Notes under the pieces: model-generated
Told to the model about the DNA's origin: nothing
What the model saw: the letters and a program-made list of their open reading frames with translations, nothing else
The model's database searches: none
Program-made: the position numbers and the translations under genes
Shown: piece by piece, positions 28,569 to 64,000 of the stretch
Layout: every line of letters starts with the position of its first letter
Position numbering within the stretch: position 1 is the first letter of the stretch
NCBI RefSeq assembly: GCF_002968285.2
Contig: NZ_CP134400.1
Location: 1,178,001-1,242,000, forward strand
Length of the DNA stretch: 64,000 nucleotides
Reading direction: 5' to 3'
Origin: Mycobacterium sp. ITM-2016-00318
Lineage (GTDB): Bacteria; Actinomycetota; Actinomycetes; Mycobacteriales; Mycobacteriaceae

Positions 28569-30347
28569 ATGCAACACCCTGACGTCGCGTTCGACCCGGA
28601 TGCGCTGCGGCAGAAATACGCCAGCGAACGCGACCGGAGGCTGCGGCCGGACGGCATCGCACAGTATGTGGAGATCGCTGGACCCTTCGCGGGATTCGCC
28701 GAGGACCCCTGGGGCGAACCGCATTTCACCCGTGCCCCGCTTCACGACGACGTCGACGTGGCGATCGTCGGCGCGGGGTTCGGAGGACTGCTGATCGGGG
28801 CGCGGCTGCGCGAACTGGGTGTGCAGAACATCCGACTGATCGACAAGGCCGCCGACGTCGGCGGCACCTGGTACTGGAACAGGTATCCGGGCATCGCCTG
28901 CGACGTCGAGTCCTATGTGTACATGCCGCTGCTGGAGGAGCTCGGCTACATCCCGACCGAGAAGTACGCCAAGGGCCACGAGATCTTCGCGCACTGCAGG
29001 CGGATCGCCGAGCATTACGACCTGTACCGCGATGCCTGCCTGCAGACCGAGGTCACGGAGATCCGCTGGGATGAAACGATTTCCCGCTGGATCATCGCCA
29101 CCAGTCACGGTGATGAGCTACTGGCGCGGTTCGTTTCCATGGCCAACGGATACCTGCAGAAGCCGAAACTGCCCGGCATACCCGGAATCATGGACTTCGG
29201 CGGGCACGCCTTCCACACCAGTCGCTGGGACTACGACTACACCGGCGACGATCTGGCCAGGCTCGCCGACAAGCGGGTGGGCATCATCGGCACCGGCGCG
29301 ACCGCGATCCAATGCGTTCCGCATCTGGGCCGATCGGCCGGGCACCTCTTCGTGTTCCAGCGCACCCCGTCGACGGTGGACGTCCGAGGCAACCGGCCCA
29401 CCGATCCGGAGTGGTCGGCGGACCTGAAGGACGGCTGGCAACGGCACCGCGTCGAGAACTTCCAGCTGCTGACCACGGGTGGGGAGGCCGATGAGGATCT
29501 GGTCGACGACGCGTGGACCAGCATCGTCAAGAAGCTGTTCGTGATGCGGCAGCGCAGCGTGACGGGGATGTCGGACGAAGACCGTTTGCGCGCAGTCGAA
29601 ATGGCCGATTTCGCCAAAATGGAGGAGATCCGGGCCCGCGTCGACTCCGTCGTGACGGACCGCGCCACCGCCGAGGGCCTCAAACCCTGGTACGGCTACT
29701 TCTGTAAACGGCCGTGCTTCCACGACGAGTACCTGCAAACCTTCAACCGCGACAACGTCACCCTCGTCGACACCCGTGGCCTTGGCGTCGAAAGGATCAC
29801 GGCGGACGGCGTCGTCGTCGACGGCACCGAGTACCGCATCGACTGCCTGATCTTCGCCACCGGATTCGAAGTGGGTACCGACTACTCCCGGCGTACGGGC
29901 TTCGACCTGATCGGGCGTGACGGCCGCACGCTGACCGACGCCTGGCGCGACGGTATCCGCACACTGCACGGCATCAACGTCCACGGCTTCCCTAACTGCT
30001 TCGTGCTGAGCATCGCGCAGTCGGGCTTCACCGTGAACTTCCCCTATCTCCTCGACGTGCAGGCGACGCACGCGGCATGGCTGATCGCCTGGGCTCTCGG
30101 CAGCGGCGTCGAGACGCTGGAGGCGTCGCTCGACGCCGAAAGCGCCTGGGTGGCCGGCATCGTGGAGCGGTCGGCGGCCGGCGCGGCACGGGCGAAGTCC
30201 TGCACGCCCGGCTACTACAACCGCGAGGGTCAGGCGAACGCGAAGACCCGCCAGGGCAGTTTTTTCTACGGCAGCCCAACCGAATACGCCGACATCCTCG
30301 CTGCGTCGAGGGCGAACGGTGCGCCGGAGGGATTCGACGTCAAGTGA
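28569..30347 (+). CDS. Baeyer-Villiger-type flavin monooxygenase (first of a tandem pair)
   Basis: This 592-residue class B flavoprotein likely uses NADPH and O2 to insert oxygen beside a ketone. FAD motif VGAGFGG is at 68-74, after an N-terminal extension of about 60 residues. The Baeyer-Villiger fingerprint FGGHAFHTSRW (F-x-G-x3-H-x3-W) is at about 210-220. The NADPH Rossmann motif IGTGATAIQ and the late ATGFE signature follow. SD GGGGCGGA precedes ATG 28569. The stop overlaps the start of the second monooxygenase in GTGA. The extension and length resemble cyclohexanone or aryl-ketone monooxygenases; the substrate is unknown. Confidence 0.9.
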   Translation: MQHPDVAFDPDALRQKYASERDRRLRPDGIAQYVEIAGPFAGFAEDPWGEPHFTRAPLHDDVDVAIVGAGFGGLLIGARLRELGVQNIRLIDKAADVGGTWYWNRYPGIACDVESYVYMPLLEELGYIPTEKYAKGHEIFAHCRRIAEHYDLYRDACLQTEVTEIRWDETISRWIIATSHGDELLARFVSMANGYLQKPKLPGIPGIMDFGGHAFHTSRWDYDYTGDDLARLADKRVGIIGTGATAIQCVPHLGRSAGHLFVFQRTPSTVDVRGNRPTDPEWSADLKDGWQRHRVENFQLLTTGGEADEDLVDDAWTSIVKKLFVMRQRSVTGMSDEDRLRAVEMADFAKMEEIRARVDSVVTDRATAEGLKPWYGYFCKRPCFHDEYLQTFNRDNVTLVDTRGLGVERITADGVVVDGTEYRIDCLIFATGFEVGTDYSRRTGFDLIGRDGRTLTDAWRDGIRTLHGINVHGFPNCFVLSIAQSGFTVNFPYLLDVQATHAAWLIAWALGSGVETLEASLDAESAWVAGIVERSAAGAARAKSCTPGYYNREGQANAKTRQGSFFYGSPTEYADILAASRANGAPEGFDVK

Positions 30348-31873
30348 CAAGACGACCTCTGTTCTGCTCCTCGCGTGCGCGACGTCGCTATGTGCTTGGG
30401 CGGGTGTTGGCGCGCACCCGTCGCAGGCGCTCGCCCCGGGTGGTGATCATCGGCGCAGGCTTCGGCGGCCTCGCCGCGGCCGTGGCGTTGCGGCGAAGGG
30501 GTATCGACGACCTGACGATCATCGAAAGCGCCGACGGCGTCGGCGGGACGTGGCGGCGCAACGTATACCCCGGTGCGGCGTGCGACATCCAGAGCCATCT
30601 GTACTCGTTCTCGTTTGCGCCGAATCGGTCGTGGAGTCGCACCTACGCGTACCAACCGGAGATCCTCGCCTATCTGGAGAAGGTCGCCGACGACTTCGAC
30701 CTCCGCCGACATCTGATGCTGAACACCGACGTGGCCGGCATGCGGTGGAACTCCGACATGGGGCACTGGGAGGTGATCCTCGACGGCCGCGACCCGATCA
30801 TCGCCGACGTGGTGGTCAGCGCGGTCGGACTCTTCGGTGAAGCGCGCTGTCCCGACATCGACGGCCTGGCGGAGTTCGCGGGCACGCTGATGCACACCGC
30901 GCAATGGGACCCGTCGGTCGACCTGGCCGGCAAGAGTGTGGCGGTGATCGGCACGGGCGCCAGCGGCGTTCAGGTCGTCCCCGAACTCGCCGATGTCGTG
31001 GGCGAATTGACGGTCTTCCAGCGCACGCCGCCGTGGATGGTGCCGAAGGAGGACCGGCCCTACAGCCCGCAGGAGTTGTCCCGATACCGCCGGCTGCCGT
31101 GGGCGTCGGCTGCGGAGCGGTGGCGGTTGTGGAAGCTGCAGCACGACAACACCGCATTGACGCCGGATCATCCGAGAATGGCTGTCGTCCAACGGTTGTC
31201 CGAGGGATTCCTGCGCAAGCACGTCGACGACGAGTCGCTGCGTGATGCGCTGACGCCCAGATATCCGTTCCGCTGCAAGCGGGTGCTGCTCGGCGAGAAG
31301 TACTACACCGCACTGCAACGCGATCACGTCAACCTCGTCGTCGAGCCCATCGACCACCTCACCGAGAAGGCGATAATCACCGCCGACGGGACAGCGATCG
31401 ACGTCGACGCGGTCGTGCTGGCGACCGGTTTCGAAACCAGCAGCTACCTGTCCGGTCTGAAGGTGACCGGCCTCGAGGGCCAGAGCCTGCACGAGCGATG
31501 GGGTTTGAATCCGCACGCTTACCTCGGCGTCGCCGTCAGCGGGTTCCCGAACTTCTTCATGCTCTACGGCCCGAACACCAACCAGGGAGCGAATTCGATC
31601 ATCTACATCCTCGAGGCGGGCGCCCGGCTCGTCGCCAGCGCGGTCAGCCGCCTCGCGCGCAGGGGCGGCTTCGTCGACGTCCACGCCGACGTCGAGCGTC
31701 GGTTCAACGACCGGATCACCGAGGACCTGGAGCAGACGATCTGGACGCGTTGTGACAGCTACTACCGGTCGCCTACCGGTCGCATCGTCACGCAGTGGCC
31801 CTACTCGGAGCTCGACTACGCGAAGGCGACCTGGCGGTTGCGGTCAGGCGACTGGGTGCACATGCGCTGGTGA
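30344..31873 (+). CDS. Baeyer-Villiger-type flavin monooxygenase (second of a tandem pair)
   Basis: The GTG at 30344 overlaps the previous stop by four bases and gives 509 residues; the longer frame from 30077 lies inside the upstream gene. An Arg-rich N-terminus (about 30 residues) precedes the FAD motif IIGAGFGGL at about 35-43. The Baeyer-Villiger fingerprint FAGTLMHTAQW is at about 179-189, with a second Rossmann motif IGTGASGVQ and LATGFETSSYL. Sequence is clearly different from the upstream enzyme, so the pair is not a recent duplication. Translational coupling suggests the two act on related substrates. Relative to M. tuberculosis this pair is inserted between gadB and alr. Confidence 0.9.
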   Translation: MTRRPLFCSSRARRRYVLGRVLARTRRRRSPRVVIIGAGFGGLAAAVALRRRGIDDLTIIESADGVGGTWRRNVYPGAACDIQSHLYSFSFAPNRSWSRTYAYQPEILAYLEKVADDFDLRRHLMLNTDVAGMRWNSDMGHWEVILDGRDPIIADVVVSAVGLFGEARCPDIDGLAEFAGTLMHTAQWDPSVDLAGKSVAVIGTGASGVQVVPELADVVGELTVFQRTPPWMVPKEDRPYSPQELSRYRRLPWASAAERWRLWKLQHDNTALTPDHPRMAVVQRLSEGFLRKHVDDESLRDALTPRYPFRCKRVLLGEKYYTALQRDHVNLVVEPIDHLTEKAIITADGTAIDVDAVVLATGFETSSYLSGLKVTGLEGQSLHERWGLNPHAYLGVAVSGFPNFFMLYGPNTNQGANSIIYILEAGARLVASAVSRLARRGGFVDVHADVERRFNDRITEDLEQTIWTRCDSYYRSPTGRIVTQWPYSELDYAKATWRLRSGDWVHMRW

Positions 31874-57924: not shown

Positions 57925-59484
57925 GTGCAGCCCGCAGCCCCGCGCCCCGTCCTCGTGGTCGACTTCGGAGCGCAGTACGCGCAGCTGATCGCGCGTCGCG
58001 TCCGTGAGGCGCGGGTGTATTCGGAGGTCGTACCCCACACCGCGTCGATCGACGAAATCAAGGCAAGGGACCCGCAGGCGATCGTGTTGTCCGGTGGTCC
58101 GTCGAGCGTGTATGTGGAGGGTGCTCCGCAGCTTGACCCCGGCGTGTTCGACCTCGGGGTCCCTGTGTTCGGCATCTGTTACGGGTTTCAGGCGATGGCG
58201 CAGACCCTCGGCGGTACCGTGGCCCGCACGGGCACCAGCGAGTACGGCCGCACGGAACTGAATGTGTCGGGTGGGCAATTGCATTCGGAGCTGCCCGAGC
58301 GTCAGCCGGTGTGGATGAGCCACGGCGACGCCGTCACCGCCGCGCCGGAGGGTTTCGACGTGGTGGCCAGCAGCGCGGGCGCACCCGTCGCGGGTTTCGA
58401 GAATCCGGCACGCGGGCTCGCCGGCGTCCAGTACCACCCCGAGGTGATGCACAGCCCGCACGGCCAGCAGGTGCTGAGCCGGTTTCTGCACGAGTTCGCG
58501 GGCATCGACTCGACGTGGACGCCGGCGAACATCGCCGACACCCTGGTCGAGCAGGTGCGCAGCCAGATCGGCGAGGGAAGGGCGATCTGCGGCCTTTCCG
58601 GCGGAGTGGACTCGGCCGTCGCCGCAGCCCTCGTCCAACGCGCCATCGGTGACCGGTTGACCTGTGTGTTCGTCGATCACGGCCTGCTGCGGGAAGGCGA
58701 GCGGGCGCAGGTACAACGTGACTTCGTCGCGGCGACGGGCGCCAACCTGGTCACCGTCGACGTCGCCGACAGATTCCTGCAGGCGCTGTCGGGCGTGACC
58801 AATCCCGAGGGCAAACGCAAGATCATCGGCCGCGAGTTCATCCGGGCGTTCGAGGGCGCGGTCCGAGACATCGTGGACGACACCGGTTCTGAGGTCGACT
58901 TCCTGGTGCAGGGCACGCTCTACCCCGACGTGGTCGAGTCCGGCGGCGGCTCAGGCACCGCGAACATCAAGAGCCATCACAATGTCGGCGGCCTTCCCGA
59001 CGACCTGACGTTCACGCTCGTCGAGCCCCTGCGTCTGTTGTTCAAGGACGAGGTTCGCGCCGTCGGCCGCGAGCTCGGACTGCCGGAGGAAATCGTTGCC
59101 CGCCAACCCTTCCCGGGTCCCGGACTGGGAATTCGCATCATCGGCGAGGTGACGAAGGACCGGCTGGACACGCTGCGCCGCGCCGATGCGATCGCGCGCG
59201 AGGAACTCACCGCGGCGGGCCTGGACAACCAGATCTGGCAGTGCCCGGTGGTGCTGCTGGCCGACATCCGGTCGGTCGGTGTGCAGGGCGACGGCCGCAC
59301 CTACGGGCACCCGATCGTGCTGCGCCCGGTGTCCAGCGAGGACGCGATGACCGCCGACTGGACGCGGGTGCCGTATGAGGTGCTCGAACGTATCTCCACC
59401 CGCATCACCAACGAAGTGCCCGAAGTGAACCGGGTCGCGCTGGACGTCACCAGCAAGCCGCCGGGCACCATCGAGTGGGAGTGA
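57925..59484 (+). CDS. guaA: GMP synthase (glutamine-hydrolysing)
   Basis: GuaA aminates XMP to GMP using glutamine. The 519-residue protein has an N-terminal class I amidotransferase domain with nucleophile Cys at about 85 ([12 protein letters not shown]), the catalytic His-Glu pair in QYHPEVMHS, and the ATP-pyrophosphatase P-loop [14 protein letters not shown] at about 220-233. The C-terminal dimerisation domain ends PPGTIEWE. The start is GTG 57925. It is convergent with the MerR gene, abutting it with no gap. Confidence 0.97.
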
Positions 59485-60405
59485 TCAGCCTTCCGGCGAG
59501 GCGTCCCCGTCGGCTTCCTTCGCGATGAAATCGCCAAGGATTTGACCGACCGCGGACTCGATGGTCGACTCGATCGAGAACGCCAACGTCGCCGACACTG
59601 CGGACACCGCTTGGGTGCGGAACCGCACCAGCATGGTCAGCAGTTCGGCTATTTCGGTGTCCGGCGGCAGCGCCTCGCCGGGCTTGATGCGATCAACGAC
59701 CTCTTCGATGCCCGCCTGCACCAGGATTCCGCTGATCTGGTCGATGATCGGGGCGATCTGCTCGTGCAGATCGATGAGCTTGTCGGTGGCAACGCCGTAC
59801 TGACGGATGTCGTTGAACGCCTCGATCAACGTGGGCCGCACGATGACGGCCTCGCCGTCCTCGAGCCGGATGACGCCGAGACCGACCATCCGGTCGAACC
59901 CAGGGTCGTCGTCGACCAACCGCTTGGCGTCGGCGACGCTCATCCGCTCCGGCTTCTCGGTGGCCCAGCTGCCTGCGATGGCCGTTTCGAGGCCGAGCAT
60001 GTCGCCGACGTTCTTGCCCTGCTCCCACGCCGACAACATCTCGTGCACGTGCGAGATGTTGTAGCCCCGGTCGAGAAGGGAGGTGATCAGCCGCAACCGG
60101 GTCAGGTGGGTGTCGTTGAACAACGCGATGCGGCCCACCCGAAGCGGTGGATGCAGCAGGCCCCTGTCGCGGTAGACGCGGATGTTGCGGGTCGTCGTGC
60201 CCGCCATCCGCGCGAGTTCCTCGATGCGGTACTCACCCGATGCCTCCATGCCGTGCGGCTGCACGGTCGCATCGAACAACTGCGAGACCGCGGACTCTAC
60301 GACGTCGCGGGAACCCCTGCGGATCTGCCGTTCCGCGCGGCGCACACCGCCGAGGATCGTAGAGATCGCCCCCGCCGGCTGCCGTGGTTGCCTGCCCCCG
60401 GACAT
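59485..60405 (-). CDS. MerR-family transcriptional regulator
   Basis: The 306-residue protein has a MerR winged-helix DNA-binding domain at about 58-125 (YRIEELARMAGTTTRNIRVYRD, GLLHPP, RLRLITSLLDRGYNISHVHE). An N-terminal extension of about 57 residues, rich in Arg and Gln, precedes it, and a large C-terminal helical domain (about 130-306) has no metal-binding Cys. Such long C-terminal domains usually bind an organic effector. It starts 1 bp after the stop of the monooxygenase gene on the same strand, so it is the last gene of that operon and a good candidate for its autoregulator. The start may be internal (for example near residue 53). Confidence 0.83.
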   Translation of the reverse strand: MSGGRQPRQPAGAISTILGGVRRAERQIRRGSRDVVESAVSQLFDATVQPHGMEASGEYRIEELARMAGTTTRNIRVYRDRGLLHPPLRVGRIALFNDTHLTRLRLITSLLDRGYNISHVHEMLSAWEQGKNVGDMLGLETAIAGSWATEKPERMSVADAKRLVDDDPGFDRMVGLGVIRLEDGEAVIVRPTLIEAFNDIRQYGVATDKLIDLHEQIAPIIDQISGILVQAGIEEVVDRIKPGEALPPDTEIAELLTMLVRFRTQAVSAVSATLAFSIESTIESAVGQILGDFIAKEADGDASPEG

Positions 60406-60406
60406 G

Positions 60407-61921
60407 TCAAGCCGACGACGTGACCGCTGGTGCGGCGGCGACGCGCGCCACCGCCTGATAGTCGGCGAACCGGAAATCCCCCATCTGACGAAGATACTGC
60501 GTGGCGAAGCCCGGGTACATCGAGGCGTTGAAGCCTTCCTTGGTCAGATACCAGCTACTGCAGCCCGACATCCATGTCGTCTTGGTCAGCCTCTTCTGCA
60601 GGCTCTTGTTGTAACTGCGCTGCACGTCCTCTCGGACGTCGAGATAGCGCAGGCCGTCCCGCAGGATCGTGGTGATACCCCGCACGGCGTAGTCGATCTG
60701 CCCCTCCACATAGACCAGAAGCGAGTTGTGGCCAGGCCCGGAGTTCGGTCCGGTCATGAAGAACAGGTTCGGGTAGCCGTGTGCGTTGATGCTCTTGTAG
60801 GCCTGCGCGCCGTCGGCCCACTCGTCGCGCAACGAGCGTCCACCGATTCCGGTGACCGGGTACGGCGGTCCTGTGAGATGGACGTCGTACCCGGTCGCGA
60901 ACACGATGCAGTCGAGGTGGTGTTCGATGCCGTCGCTGGTGCGGATGCCGACCGGGCTGATCGTCGCGATCGGCCAGTCGATCAGCTTGCAGTTGTCGCG
61001 TTGCAGGGCGGGGTAGTAGTCGCTGGAGACGAGCATGCGCTTGCAGCCGGGGGTGAAGTTCGGCGTGAGCTGGCGGCGCAGCCACGGGTCCTTGACCTGA
61101 CGTCGCAGGTGCGCCCTGCCGACCCGGGCCACCAGGCCGGTCAGCGGGCTGTCCCACACCAGCGCGGTCGCGCTGACCTCGTGACCCCAGTACAACACCT
61201 GACGGGCAAGCTGCTGTGTGGCAGGGACTTTCGCGAACAGTCCCTGTGCGGCGGCGGGGATGGGCAGGTCCATTCGGGGCAGCACCCAGCCCGGCGTGCG
61301 TTGAAAGACCTTGACGAAGTCGGCCTTCTCGACGAGTTCGGGGATGATCTGCACCGCGCTGGCGCCGGTACCGATGACCGCGACCCGCTTACCCGCGAAG
61401 TCGTAGTCGTGATCCCAGCGCGCGCTGTGAATCACGGTGCCCTCGTAGGTGTCGACACCGCGGATGTCGGGCAGCTTATGGTCGGGCAGCGATCCGGAGG
61501 CCAACGCCACCGTGCGCGCCGTGTAGGTCGTCCGACCCGTCGTCTCGACCGTCCAGGCGCCTTCGGCTTCGTCGAAGTGCAGCCCGTTGACCTCGACGCC
61601 GAACTGGATGCGCCTGCGCAGGTCGAATGCGTCGACCAAATCCTCGATGTGTGCGCAGATCTCGCCGGCAGGGGAGTATGCGCGCGACCAGTCCGGGTTC
61701 TGCGCGAACGAGAAGGAGTACAGCAGCGACGGGATGTCGCACGCCGCACCGGGATACGTGTTGTCCCGCCATGTTCCGCCCACGCGATCTTCCCGCTCGA
61801 CGATGACGAAGTCGTCGACGCCTGCCTGCGCGAGCTTGATCGCGGTGCCGATCCCGGTGAAGCCGCTGCCGACGATCAGCGTGTCGTGAACGCGCTGGCT
61901 CACGTCAGGCCGCCGGCTCAT
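60407..61921 (-). CDS. Flavin-containing monooxygenase, MymA-like Baeyer-Villiger type
   Basis: The 504-residue flavoprotein has the FAD motif IVGSGFTGIG at 16-25, a near-complete Baeyer-Villiger fingerprint (YEGTVIHSARW, with Tyr for the first Phe), the NADPH motif IGTGASAVQ and FATGYD. The set RVGGTWRDNTYPGAACD is shared with the MymA (Rv3083) and EthA groups. It is followed by the MerR gene and preceded by the diiron protein gene, overlapping it by 17 bp. Likely an NADPH-dependent oxygenase acting on a lipid-derived ketone, which is inference. Confidence 0.88.
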   Translation of the reverse strand: MSRRPDVSQRVHDTLIVGSGFTGIGTAIKLAQAGVDDFVIVEREDRVGGTWRDNTYPGAACDIPSLLYSFSFAQNPDWSRAYSPAGEICAHIEDLVDAFDLRRRIQFGVEVNGLHFDEAEGAWTVETTGRTTYTARTVALASGSLPDHKLPDIRGVDTYEGTVIHSARWDHDYDFAGKRVAVIGTGASAVQIIPELVEKADFVKVFQRTPGWVLPRMDLPIPAAAQGLFAKVPATQQLARQVLYWGHEVSATALVWDSPLTGLVARVGRAHLRRQVKDPWLRRQLTPNFTPGCKRMLVSSDYYPALQRDNCKLIDWPIATISPVGIRTSDGIEHHLDCIVFATGYDVHLTGPPYPVTGIGGRSLRDEWADGAQAYKSINAHGYPNLFFMTGPNSGPGHNSLLVYVEGQIDYAVRGITTILRDGLRYLDVREDVQRSYNKSLQKRLTKTTWMSGCSSWYLTKEGFNASMYPGFATQYLRQMGDFRFADYQAVARVAAAPAVTSSA

Positions 61922-62825
61922 GGGTGACCTCTTTGACCCACGTCGGTACCGACGGCAGCAGCGCCTTCGGATACTGGTCGGAGAGCCAGATCATCGAGTT
62001 GGCCAGTAGGTGGTACGGATGACGGGGGTTGGTCACCACCCCGGCGTATCGACGCAGCAGCTGGTACGTCGGCACCCGCCACGTCGATTCGCCGCGATCG
62101 CCGAGCTCCTTGAACCGCTTCACCGCCCTGTAGAGCCGCTCGGGTTCCATCCCCATCTCGACGATCTCGTTGCGGATCCGGTTGATAAGCGGGGCACCCG
62201 TGATCAGGCCGACGATGACGCCAGGGGTTGCGTTGTGGCCGATGAAGTCGATCAGCATCCGACGGATCTTCGCGTGTCCGATCATGTCGAGCACCTCGAA
62301 GTCGACGACCAGGTGCCGTGACTCGTCGTTGTTGATCTTCTCGAAGACCCGGTGGCACACCGGATCATGCACTTCGTCGAGCAGGAATTTGAGCAGCGCC
62401 CCGTCCAGCGCGACCTCCAGCATCGGGATCACCGTTCCGAGCAGCGACAGTGGCATGTCGTCGGCCCAACGGTCCAGCCACTCGATGGCCAGCCGGATGT
62501 TCACGTTCGGCTCCGGCACTTCGCCGTCTTCGAGCATGCCCCAGCGCTTCATCAGCGCAAGCTCGGCGTTGGCGTGCCGTTGTTCCTCGGCGTGGAAGTA
62601 GCGGTAGATCTCGGCGATGGTCGGCGTCGGCGCCTTCCTCGCCAGTGCGGCGAAACCTCGCGCGCCGATGTTCTCGATCCAGCACAGGTCGGCCATGAAT
62701 GCCTTGAGCTGCGGCCGCTGTTCGTCGCTGATCATCTCGGCGCCTGGTGCGTCCCAGTCGATGTCGGCAAGCGCCCACTGACGGTCCTTGATCTTCGCCA
62801 GCATCACGTCCATGTCGATCGCCAT
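61905..62825 (-). CDS. Ferritin-like diiron protein, likely oxygenase or oxidase
   Basis: The 306-residue all-helical product has two E-x2-H metal motifs, EEQRH at about 80-84 and DESRH at about 163-167, with extra carboxylates in the DLCWIENIGARG helix and EVALDGALLKF. This is the four-helix diiron arrangement of AurF, R2-like and rubrerythrin relatives. It has no transmembrane desaturase features. A cluster position between an SDR and a Baeyer-Villiger monooxygenase implies O2-dependent modification of the same substrate. SD GAGGAT precedes ATG 62825. Confidence 0.82.
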   Translation of the reverse strand: MAIDMDVMLAKIKDRQWALADIDWDAPGAEMISDEQRPQLKAFMADLCWIENIGARGFAALARKAPTPTIAEIYRYFHAEEQRHANAELALMKRWGMLEDGEVPEPNVNIRLAIEWLDRWADDMPLSLLGTVIPMLEVALDGALLKFLLDEVHDPVCHRVFEKINNDESRHLVVDFEVLDMIGHAKIRRMLIDFIGHNATPGVIVGLITGAPLINRIRNEIVEMGMEPERLYRAVKRFKELGDRGESTWRVPTYQLLRRYAGVVTNPRHPYHLLANSMIWLSDQYPKALLPSVPTWVKEVTHEPAA

Positions 62826-62834
62826 TGATCCTCC

Positions 62835-63668
62835 TCAAGGTGTCGTGATACGTGTGGTGAGTCCGGCGGCGCGGGTGTAAACCGTCGGGGTGAAACGCTT
62901 GATGCCCCAGCTGATCCGGGCATCGGGCTGCGGCATGCAGTACAGGCCGCCGCGGTCGAGGGTGTCCAGGCAGGTACGCGCTACCCGCCCCGGTGGGAAG
63001 CCCGTCCAGCGCATCAGCCGGTCCGCCATCTGTGTCGACTTGTCGGTGATTCGGCCCGAGTCGACGATGTTGGTCTTGACGAACGTGGGGCACAGCACCG
63101 TGACGCGCACACCGGTGCCCGAGAGTTCGGCGGCCAGCGTCTCGGACAATGACAACACGCCTGCCTTGCTCACGTTGTAGGCCGCCATCCCCGGCGCCGC
63201 GCCGAAAGCCGCTGCGGACGCGACGTTGATGATGCCGCCGTAGCCGGCTTCGCGAAGGATCGGCGCGAAGACGTGACAACCGTGGATCGGGCCCCACAGG
63301 TTGATGCCGAGAAGCCAGTGCCAGTCGTCGATATCGGTCTCGCCGATCGCCGTACCGCCCGCACCGACGCCCGCGTTGTTGATCACGACGGTCGGCGGCC
63401 CGCCGAACCAGTCCTGCGCGATCTTGGCCAGTTGCACGACCTCGTCGAGTTGGGCGACGTCGCACCTCGTCGCCAGCGCCTCACCGCCGGCGGCGACGAT
63501 CGCGTCGGCCGTTGCGCGCGCGGCTGTTTCGTCGATGTCGCTGCACACCACCCTGCCGCCTCTTCTGGCGAGCTCGGTGGCGAACGCTTCGCCGATGCCG
63601 CTTCCTGCGCCGGTGATGACGGCAGCTGCGTCGCGGCTGCGCTTGGCCGACGATCCGAAGAGGCCCAT
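62835..63668 (-). CDS. Short-chain dehydrogenase/reductase, SadH-like
   Basis: The 277-residue SDR has VITGAGSGIGEAFA at about 17-30, the acidic loop SDIDE that selects NAD(H), VINNAGVGAGG, and the catalytic Ser (NVASAAAFGAA) with YNVSKAG. Sequence character is close to SadH (Rv3085) of the mymA operon. The C-terminal extension with WGIKRFTPTVYT is typical of that group. It lies 9 bp upstream of the diiron gene and 4 bp downstream of the hydrolase gene. Confidence 0.88.
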   Translation of the reverse strand: MGLFGSSAKRSRDAAAVITGAGSGIGEAFATELARRGGRVVCSDIDETAARATADAIVAAGGEALATRCDVAQLDEVVQLAKIAQDWFGGPPTVVINNAGVGAGGTAIGETDIDDWHWLLGINLWGPIHGCHVFAPILREAGYGGIINVASAAAFGAAPGMAAYNVSKAGVLSLSETLAAELSGTGVRVTVLCPTFVKTNIVDSGRITDKSTQMADRLMRWTGFPPGRVARTCLDTLDRGGLYCMPQPDARISWGIKRFTPTVYTRAAGLTTRITTP

Positions 63669-63672
63669 GACC

Positions 63673-64000
63673 CTATCCCGCCTGTCGATCGATGACGGTG
63701 TCGCCGAGCGACTCCGTGATGAAGTGCGCCACCTTCCTCATGGCGGGTCCCGCTTCGGGCGAGATCCGGGGTAGTGCTTGGAAGACGTGGAGTTGGTCGG
63801 GCCAGACCTGAAGCTCGCAGTCGCCGCCCGCCGCGCGAATGTCGGCTGCGAGCGCTCGGGCGTCGGCGGAGAGAAATTCCGCGCCGCCGGCGTGGATGAG
63901 GGTGCGCGGCAAGCATCGTCCCCCCGCTACGTCGAGAGTGAGCCGCGGATGACCCAGATCGGTGCCCAGGCAGTACAACCCGACAAGCCGCTCGGCGTCG
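63673..64000 (-). CDS. C-terminal part of an alpha/beta hydrolase, LipR-like (truncated by window)
   Basis: About 109 residues of an alpha/beta hydrolase are visible, and the frame remains open at the window edge. The Asp region LSADARALAADIRAAG and catalytic His in DQLHVFQALP mark the HSL-type esterase/lipase fold. The nucleophile lies outside. With SDR and monooxygenase it recalls the mymA-lipR-sadH order of M. tuberculosis. Confidence 0.8.
   Translation of the reverse strand, partial: DAERLVGLYCLGTDLGHPRLTLDVAGGRCLPRTLIHAGGAEFLSADARALAADIRAAGGDCELQVWPDQLHVFQALPRISPEAGPAMRKVAHFITESLGDTVIDRQAG

Follow-up and report, generated by a model that had tools for sequence, protein, structure and literature searches.

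Sets in which an alcohol dehydrogenase, a Baeyer–Villiger monooxygenase (BVMO) and a hydrolase are encoded together, of the chnABC and cpnABC type, are catabolic. A second point of reference is the mymA operon of Mycobacterium tuberculosis, in which Rv3084 is LipR and Rv3085 is SadH, and whose regulator, VirS, is of the AraC type. In the portions of two reports available to us (PMC2793005, PMC13234193), this operon has seven genes, Rv3083–Rv3089, with fadD13 last, and is under VirS. Here we analyse a five-gene block in Mycobacterium sp. ITM-2016-00318, which was described as mymA-like by a reading made from the sequence alone. It lies at the end of a 64,000-nucleotide stretch of contig NZ_CP134400.1 (positions 1,178,001 to 1,242,000), called the window below. 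No account of this block was recognised in the open-licence literature that we searched.

The block combines a ferritin-like dimetal protein with a short-chain dehydrogenase/reductase (SDR), a BVMO, an esterase and a MerR-type regulator. We tentatively propose that the dimetal protein founds its own branch of R2-like monooxygenases, one that lacks the R2lox cross-link; that it carries out the first hydroxylation in a complete C–C-cleaving route encoded in one MerR/palindrome operon of Mycobacteriaceae; and that the part of it deciding the substrate exists in two versions exchanged between species by recombination, with the rest of the operon kept.

A tightly packed five-gene block

The five-gene block described in the sequence-only reading was confirmed: all five open reading frames lie head to tail on the minus strand. 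The unit and its putative operator are as follows.

63673–64000, minus strand: alpha/beta hydrolase (esterase) gene that opens the unit and crosses the window end (Pfam Abhydrolase_3)
62835–63668, minus strand: SDR, 277 amino acids (Pfam adh_short)
61905–62825, minus strand: ferritin-like dimetal protein, 306 amino acids, type A (see below), with a predicted R2-like fold (ligands E51, E81/H84, E137 and E168/H171)
60407–61921, minus strand: Baeyer–Villiger-type flavin monooxygenase (BVMO), 504 amino acids (Pfam Pyr_redox_3/FMO-like; PDB relatives; motifs)
59485–60405, minus strand: MerR-type regulator, 306 amino acids, last gene of the unit (PF13411, 69.9 bits against a cut-off of 21.6)
Window-equivalent 64673–64690, beyond the window (G000:C1:1242673-1242690, L009:6674-6691): putative operator TGACATTGACAAATGTCA, 22 bp before the hydrolase ATG

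The hydrolase and SDR genes are 4 bp apart, the SDR and dimetal genes 9 bp, and the BVMO and MerR genes 1 bp. The dimetal and BVMO genes overlap by 17 bp (61905–61921), as had been reported; the several 1-bp gaps reported with this overlap reduce to one, between BVMO and MerR. In the whole genome (5.46 Mb, one contig) the hydrolase starts at window-equivalent 64650 (L009:5674-6651), its ATG being chosen as the one behind the operator; locus L060 shows the same start context. At the other end, the stop codon of the MerR gene abuts that of the convergent guaA gene (57925–59484).

We compared the block across 81 loci: its own plus the 80 top-ranking ones among 205 matches found with the dimetal protein, a set that is biased rather than random. 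The sequence-only reading had suggested a search of other genomes for the five-gene order, and would have been refuted by an order unique to this strain. It was not refuted: all five genes stand in the same order at 63 of the 81 loci, and SDR–dimetal–BVMO–MerR at 77, with median gaps of 1 to 10 bp. Because the order is kept so widely, the gaps are small and the protein motifs are retained (see below), the packing is more than chance. Within the genus, 131 of 198 genomes have a homologue of the dimetal protein (at least 72% identical in 104, counted among the matches listed); within the family, 98 of 251 genomes do, spread over 14 of 31 genera. The best named matches were to Mycobacterium and Mycolicibacterium, and block genes in other genera were located by tblastn. 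The block is thus common to many mycobacteria and their relatives, and it looks like one self-regulated unit.

The dimetal protein and its partner enzymes

The dimetal protein is predicted to adopt an R2-like fold. Its model resembles NrdF, and the R2-like proteins matched by it include ribonucleotide reductase, R2lox, aldehyde-deformylating oxygenase, and toluene and phenol hydroxylases. The six ligands (E51, E81, H84, E137, E168 and H171) are invariant in 42 aligned rows, and the metal-ligand motifs are kept at all 81 loci. Pfam gave no Ribonuc_red_sm match (E 0.001), and a PDB sequence search with the protein gave chance matches only. The AurF profile stayed below its cut-off (22.1 against 29.6 bits), which leaves the protein outside the AurF N-oxygenases, and the Rubrerythrin profile just passed its own (23.0 against 22.8).

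The dimetal protein has in common with R2lox the (here predicted) R2-like fold and the six carboxylate/histidine ligands. It differs in being encoded in its own operon, and in the residues of the R2lox cross-link: the V72/Y162 pair is replaced by G54/V132, invariant in 39 rows, where the equivalence was set by spacing from the ligands. In the part of one report available to us, an R2lox protein is described as consuming C10–C22 alkanes (PMC10867098), which by analogy gives modest grounds for considering aliphatic substrates plausible for the dimetal protein.

The partner enzymes are more readily placed in families. The best PDB relatives of the block BVMO are themselves BVMOs, including phenylacetone monooxygenase (E 9.4e-76). 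The Rossmann and fingerprint motifs, which we take to mark type I BVMOs, are present in it and are found at 79, 80 and 79 of the 81 loci. Within this genome, its best paralogue shares 43% identity with it. Elsewhere in the window, on the plus strand (28755–31855), a tandem of two or more other BVMO-like genes shows at most 38% identity to the block BVMO. The regulator has a MerR_1 DNA-binding domain (Pfam, E 1.9e-19).

A palindrome at the head of the unit

The palindrome TGACATTGACAAATGTCA heads the unit at 76 of the 81 loci (with up to two mismatches), whichever gene is first; at the remaining five (L051, L059, L069, L094 and L104) the contig ends before the head of the unit. Its position tracks that head: it precedes the SDR gene in L041, L043, L093 and L096, and in L101 and L110 it precedes the dimetal gene. 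This genome has one perfect match to TGACATTNNNNAATGTCA, which is the site ahead of the hydrolase; up to two mismatches are found at five further places, and at three for the reversed pattern. The palindrome contains, and is centred on, a −35-like TTGACA. TGACA-N2-TGTCA occurs in 37 of 61 upstream regions, and overlapping dyads in 30 to 33; in 20 shuffles of these regions the dyad count never exceeded three.

Scanning 196 genomes with TGNCATTGACNAATGTCA gave 92 sites, spread over 91 genomes; the reversed control gave no site. Of these sites, 85 are no more than 4 kb away from a dimetal gene with at least 72% identity, three come from genomes in which that gene sits on a separate contig, and four come from three genomes lacking any dimetal gene at that level of identity. 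These four are in G137 (C5:247033 and C8:943003), G178 (C1:1562793) and G023 (C3:3301749). The first is about 1.9 kb upstream of a 57% identical dimetal homologue; the other three may mark further genes of the regulon.

In other genera, the core CATTGACNANTG precedes the unit in 18 of 23 contexts, 16 times as GCCATTGACAA[ACG]TGGC, and it is present in 16 of 18 contexts with a MerR gene compared to two of five without. Where genes diverge, the palindrome lies between them: between reductase and hydrolase, MerR and hydrolase, MerR and dimetal (L181), or SDR and dimetal (L174). The arm bases A and T of many mycobacteria become C and G in other genera, so that the symmetry of the palindrome is kept. 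Covariation of the outer arms within the genus was 4.11 of 7 symmetric positions, compared to a mean of 4.06 and a maximum of 4.26 for re-dealt arms. As this does not rise above the re-dealt arms, we limit the claim to the 18-bp core. From its position and co-occurrence, MerR is the natural candidate for the protein that binds the palindrome.

Two exchanged versions of the dimetal gene

The dimetal proteins of the 81 loci fall into two types. Type A (36 of 81) is at least 88% identical to the protein studied here, and type B (45 of 81) at most 84%; these proportions mean little because the loci were picked by similarity to that protein, and the tree discordance described here does not rest on them. 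The types separate with support of 100/99 in the tree of all 81 proteins, and in quick trees with outgroups type A is one clade nested among type B rows. Most of the type-specific residues (13 of 15) are beyond residue 183, outside the four ligand-bearing helices.

The trees of the neighbouring genes do not follow this division. The A/B label has to change 10 times on the BVMO tree (79 rows; seven changes forced by strong branches), 11 times on the MerR tree (80 rows; five forced), nine times on the SDR tree (77 rows; three forced) and four times on the guaA tree (50 rows; two forced). The BVMO data reject type A as a single clade (P value of the approximately unbiased test, p-AU, 9.5e-147). 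Conversely, the dimetal data reject a grouping of L103 with its sisters (p-AU 1.8e-4) and, marginally, a grouping of the locus studied here with L051, L060, L040 and L078 (p-AU 0.026). The loci at which the dimetal version departs from the trees of its operon neighbours are L103, L095, L078 and L082, with their sisters.

Could types A and B instead be old paralogues, lost differently in different species? For the gene versions we consider this quite improbable. It would fit the weak separation of type A by residues 1–118 alone (support 83) and the near-saturation of fourfold sites in distant A pairs. It sits poorly with L103, where both parts of the dimetal gene have their nearest relatives in B-type species but SDR, BVMO and MerR have theirs in A-type sisters. 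Compared to the A-type sister L047, L103 is 85–93% identical in the flanks and 92% from the BVMO start onward, but 68–75% across approximately the final 60% of the dimetal gene. Identity at fourfold sites between L103 and L075 is 26/72 in the C-terminal part versus 199/259 in BVMO, while the same-type pair L047/L052 shows no such silent-site drop. In L078, only the C-terminal part of the dimetal protein is nearest to B-type species, which again argues against paralogues. The drop is clear for L103 but not for L089/L067 or for our locus against L078 (42/78 in the C-terminal part versus 132/232 in BVMO, which is uninformative); this last case therefore rests on amino acids, given the near-saturation. 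We considered and gave up a rule by which exchange is confined to the 3′ 60% of the gene, as both parts are affected in L103 and only the C-terminal part in L078. Since the two versions contradict the trees of their neighbours, the dimetal gene has been exchanged between species on its own. What these comparisons point to is single-gene exchange inside a conserved operon.

Neighbouring genes and plasmid relatives

Translations suggest that the block is preceded, in the same direction, by genes for a zinc-ribbon membrane protein and for a protease of the S53 type (together L009:6705-10228) and then by imuA′/imuB homologues. Homologues of the zinc-ribbon protein, the protease or both are found at this place in part of the 81 loci only. 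guaA was found adjoining the unit at 50 of the 81 loci and is elsewhere in the others, which include species that we take to be slow growers. Locus tags of M. smegmatis near the presumed position of guaA were tried as a counterpart and rejected; in the part of the source available to us, they are ABC-transporter genes.

In M. chubuense NBB4 and M. aubagnense, plasmids (L145 and L146) carry an SDR–dimetal–BVMO set without the palindrome, and no MerR gene was found in either. The set is followed by genes for a second BVMO, a hydrolase, a P450, FadD and acyl-CoA dehydrogenase, and thus belongs to a larger, differently regulated cluster.

A proposed route and its alternatives

How might these genes work together? 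The sequence-only reading had suggested oxidative breakdown of long-chain or sterol-like compounds, and in its general form an oxidative breakdown role is probably right. Going further, we consider it an even call that the five genes form a single operon under MerR control, whose four enzymes make up a route for oxidising and cutting a carbon skeleton. From its fold, its ligands and the reductase linked to it in relatives, the dimetal protein would activate O2 and hydroxylate a carbon. Judging by their families, the SDR would then oxidise the alcohol to a ketone, the BVMO would convert the ketone to an ester or lactone, and the esterase would hydrolyse this product. The outcome would be cleavage of a chain or ring next to the ketone just formed. 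Electrons may come from a ferredoxin-type reductase; in some relatives its gene lies on the far side of the operator in divergent orientation, and in this genome it would have to act from elsewhere. Position and co-occurrence suggest that MerR would bind the palindrome before the first gene, and thereby control its own operon. Relief of repression by a compound of the pathway would be the likeliest mode, because the palindrome is centred on the −35-like element.

Several observations weigh against this proposal. No reductase gene adjoins the block at its own locus or at the other 80 loci of the genus, and the nearest reductase relative in this genome (50% identical) looks like KshB. The classical MerR layout has the operator between −35 and −10, from which a palindrome centred on a −35-like element would depart. 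The exact pattern is absent from 15 of 103 genomes that have the dimetal gene. In L176 and L180 a MerR gene stands without the core pattern, although L176 carries a near variant of it; tblastn found no MerR gene in L173 and L184, where the operator is present. The shuffle control for the dyads ignores relatedness among loci. Finally, R2lox is a weak precedent: in the accessible part of the report on it, the alkane work used crude lysates and a ligand mutant lost activity only partly (PMC10867098).

A different function for the same genes would be detoxification or stress defence, with MerR sensing a reactive or lipophilic compound that the enzymes remove, and with the dimetal protein acting as an oxidase, desaturase or peroxide handler rather than as the hydroxylase that opens a route. 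Toxic compounds are a frequent signal for MerR proteins, the R2-like fold underlies reactions of very different kinds, and the Rubrerythrin profile is just reached. We nevertheless regard this function as unlikely. The partner enzymes form a familiar series from alcohol through ketone and ester to acid, the plasmid relatives adjoin genes for fatty-acid activation, and a ferredoxin-type reductase is linked to the block in 7 of 23 family contexts.

If the oxidative cleavage route is right, many mycobacteria and their relatives would have a defined oxidation route whose first enzyme comes from the R2 superfamily, a group with continuing debate over native substrates. With the palindrome, both the regulon and its inducer become directly testable. 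Exchange of the dimetal gene alone would point to selection on the oxygenase itself, and so offer a handle on its substrate.

Comparison with known systems

The likeness to mymA is one of enzyme kinds (BVMO, esterase and SDR) and goes no further. By gene content and regulator, the seven genes of mymA end in fadD13 and are under VirS, whereas the block runs hydrolase–SDR–dimetal–BVMO–MerR, has a regulator of the MerR_1 family and is followed by convergent guaA; the dimetal protein and the palindrome-headed layout differ as well. No FadD, acyl-CoA ligase, acyltransferase or AraC gene was recognised in the unit. The block thus lacks two defining features of mymA and is not a mymA operon, so that ‘mymA-like’ does not hold beyond the enzyme kinds. 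The accompanying view of a distinct unit, with closely spaced genes that include those for a dimetal protein and a MerR regulator, was borne out.

The recurrence of these enzymes in mymA could still suggest a shared purpose, namely remodelling of lipids or the envelope as proposed for mymA (PMC2793005, in the part available), in which an endogenous lipid is modified and catabolism is not fed. This seems improbable for a unit in which neither an acyl-CoA ligase nor an acyltransferase was recognised, which has relatives on catabolic-looking plasmids, and whose dimetal protein has no homologue in 67 of the 198 genomes of the genus.

The block has other counterparts. A plasmid of Tsukamurella tyrosinosolvens (NZ_LR134464) has the same order, annotated gene by gene as hydrolase, SDR, ‘reductase’, NAD(P)/FAD oxidoreductase and MerR, also with the palindrome before the hydrolase; its dimetal protein is 56% identical, and a ferredoxin–NADP reductase gene is divergent upstream. 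Sets of the chnABC and cpnABC type resemble the block in having SDR, BVMO and hydrolase side by side and in their logic of alcohol, ketone, ester and acid. The three genes are likewise contiguous in the block, with the dimetal gene between SDR and BVMO. What the block adds is the dimetal protein, predicted to be R2-like, and a MerR regulator of its own together with the palindrome. The description that fits it best is a dehydrogenase–BVMO–hydrolase set that includes a built-in (predicted) R2-like protein and a dedicated MerR switch.

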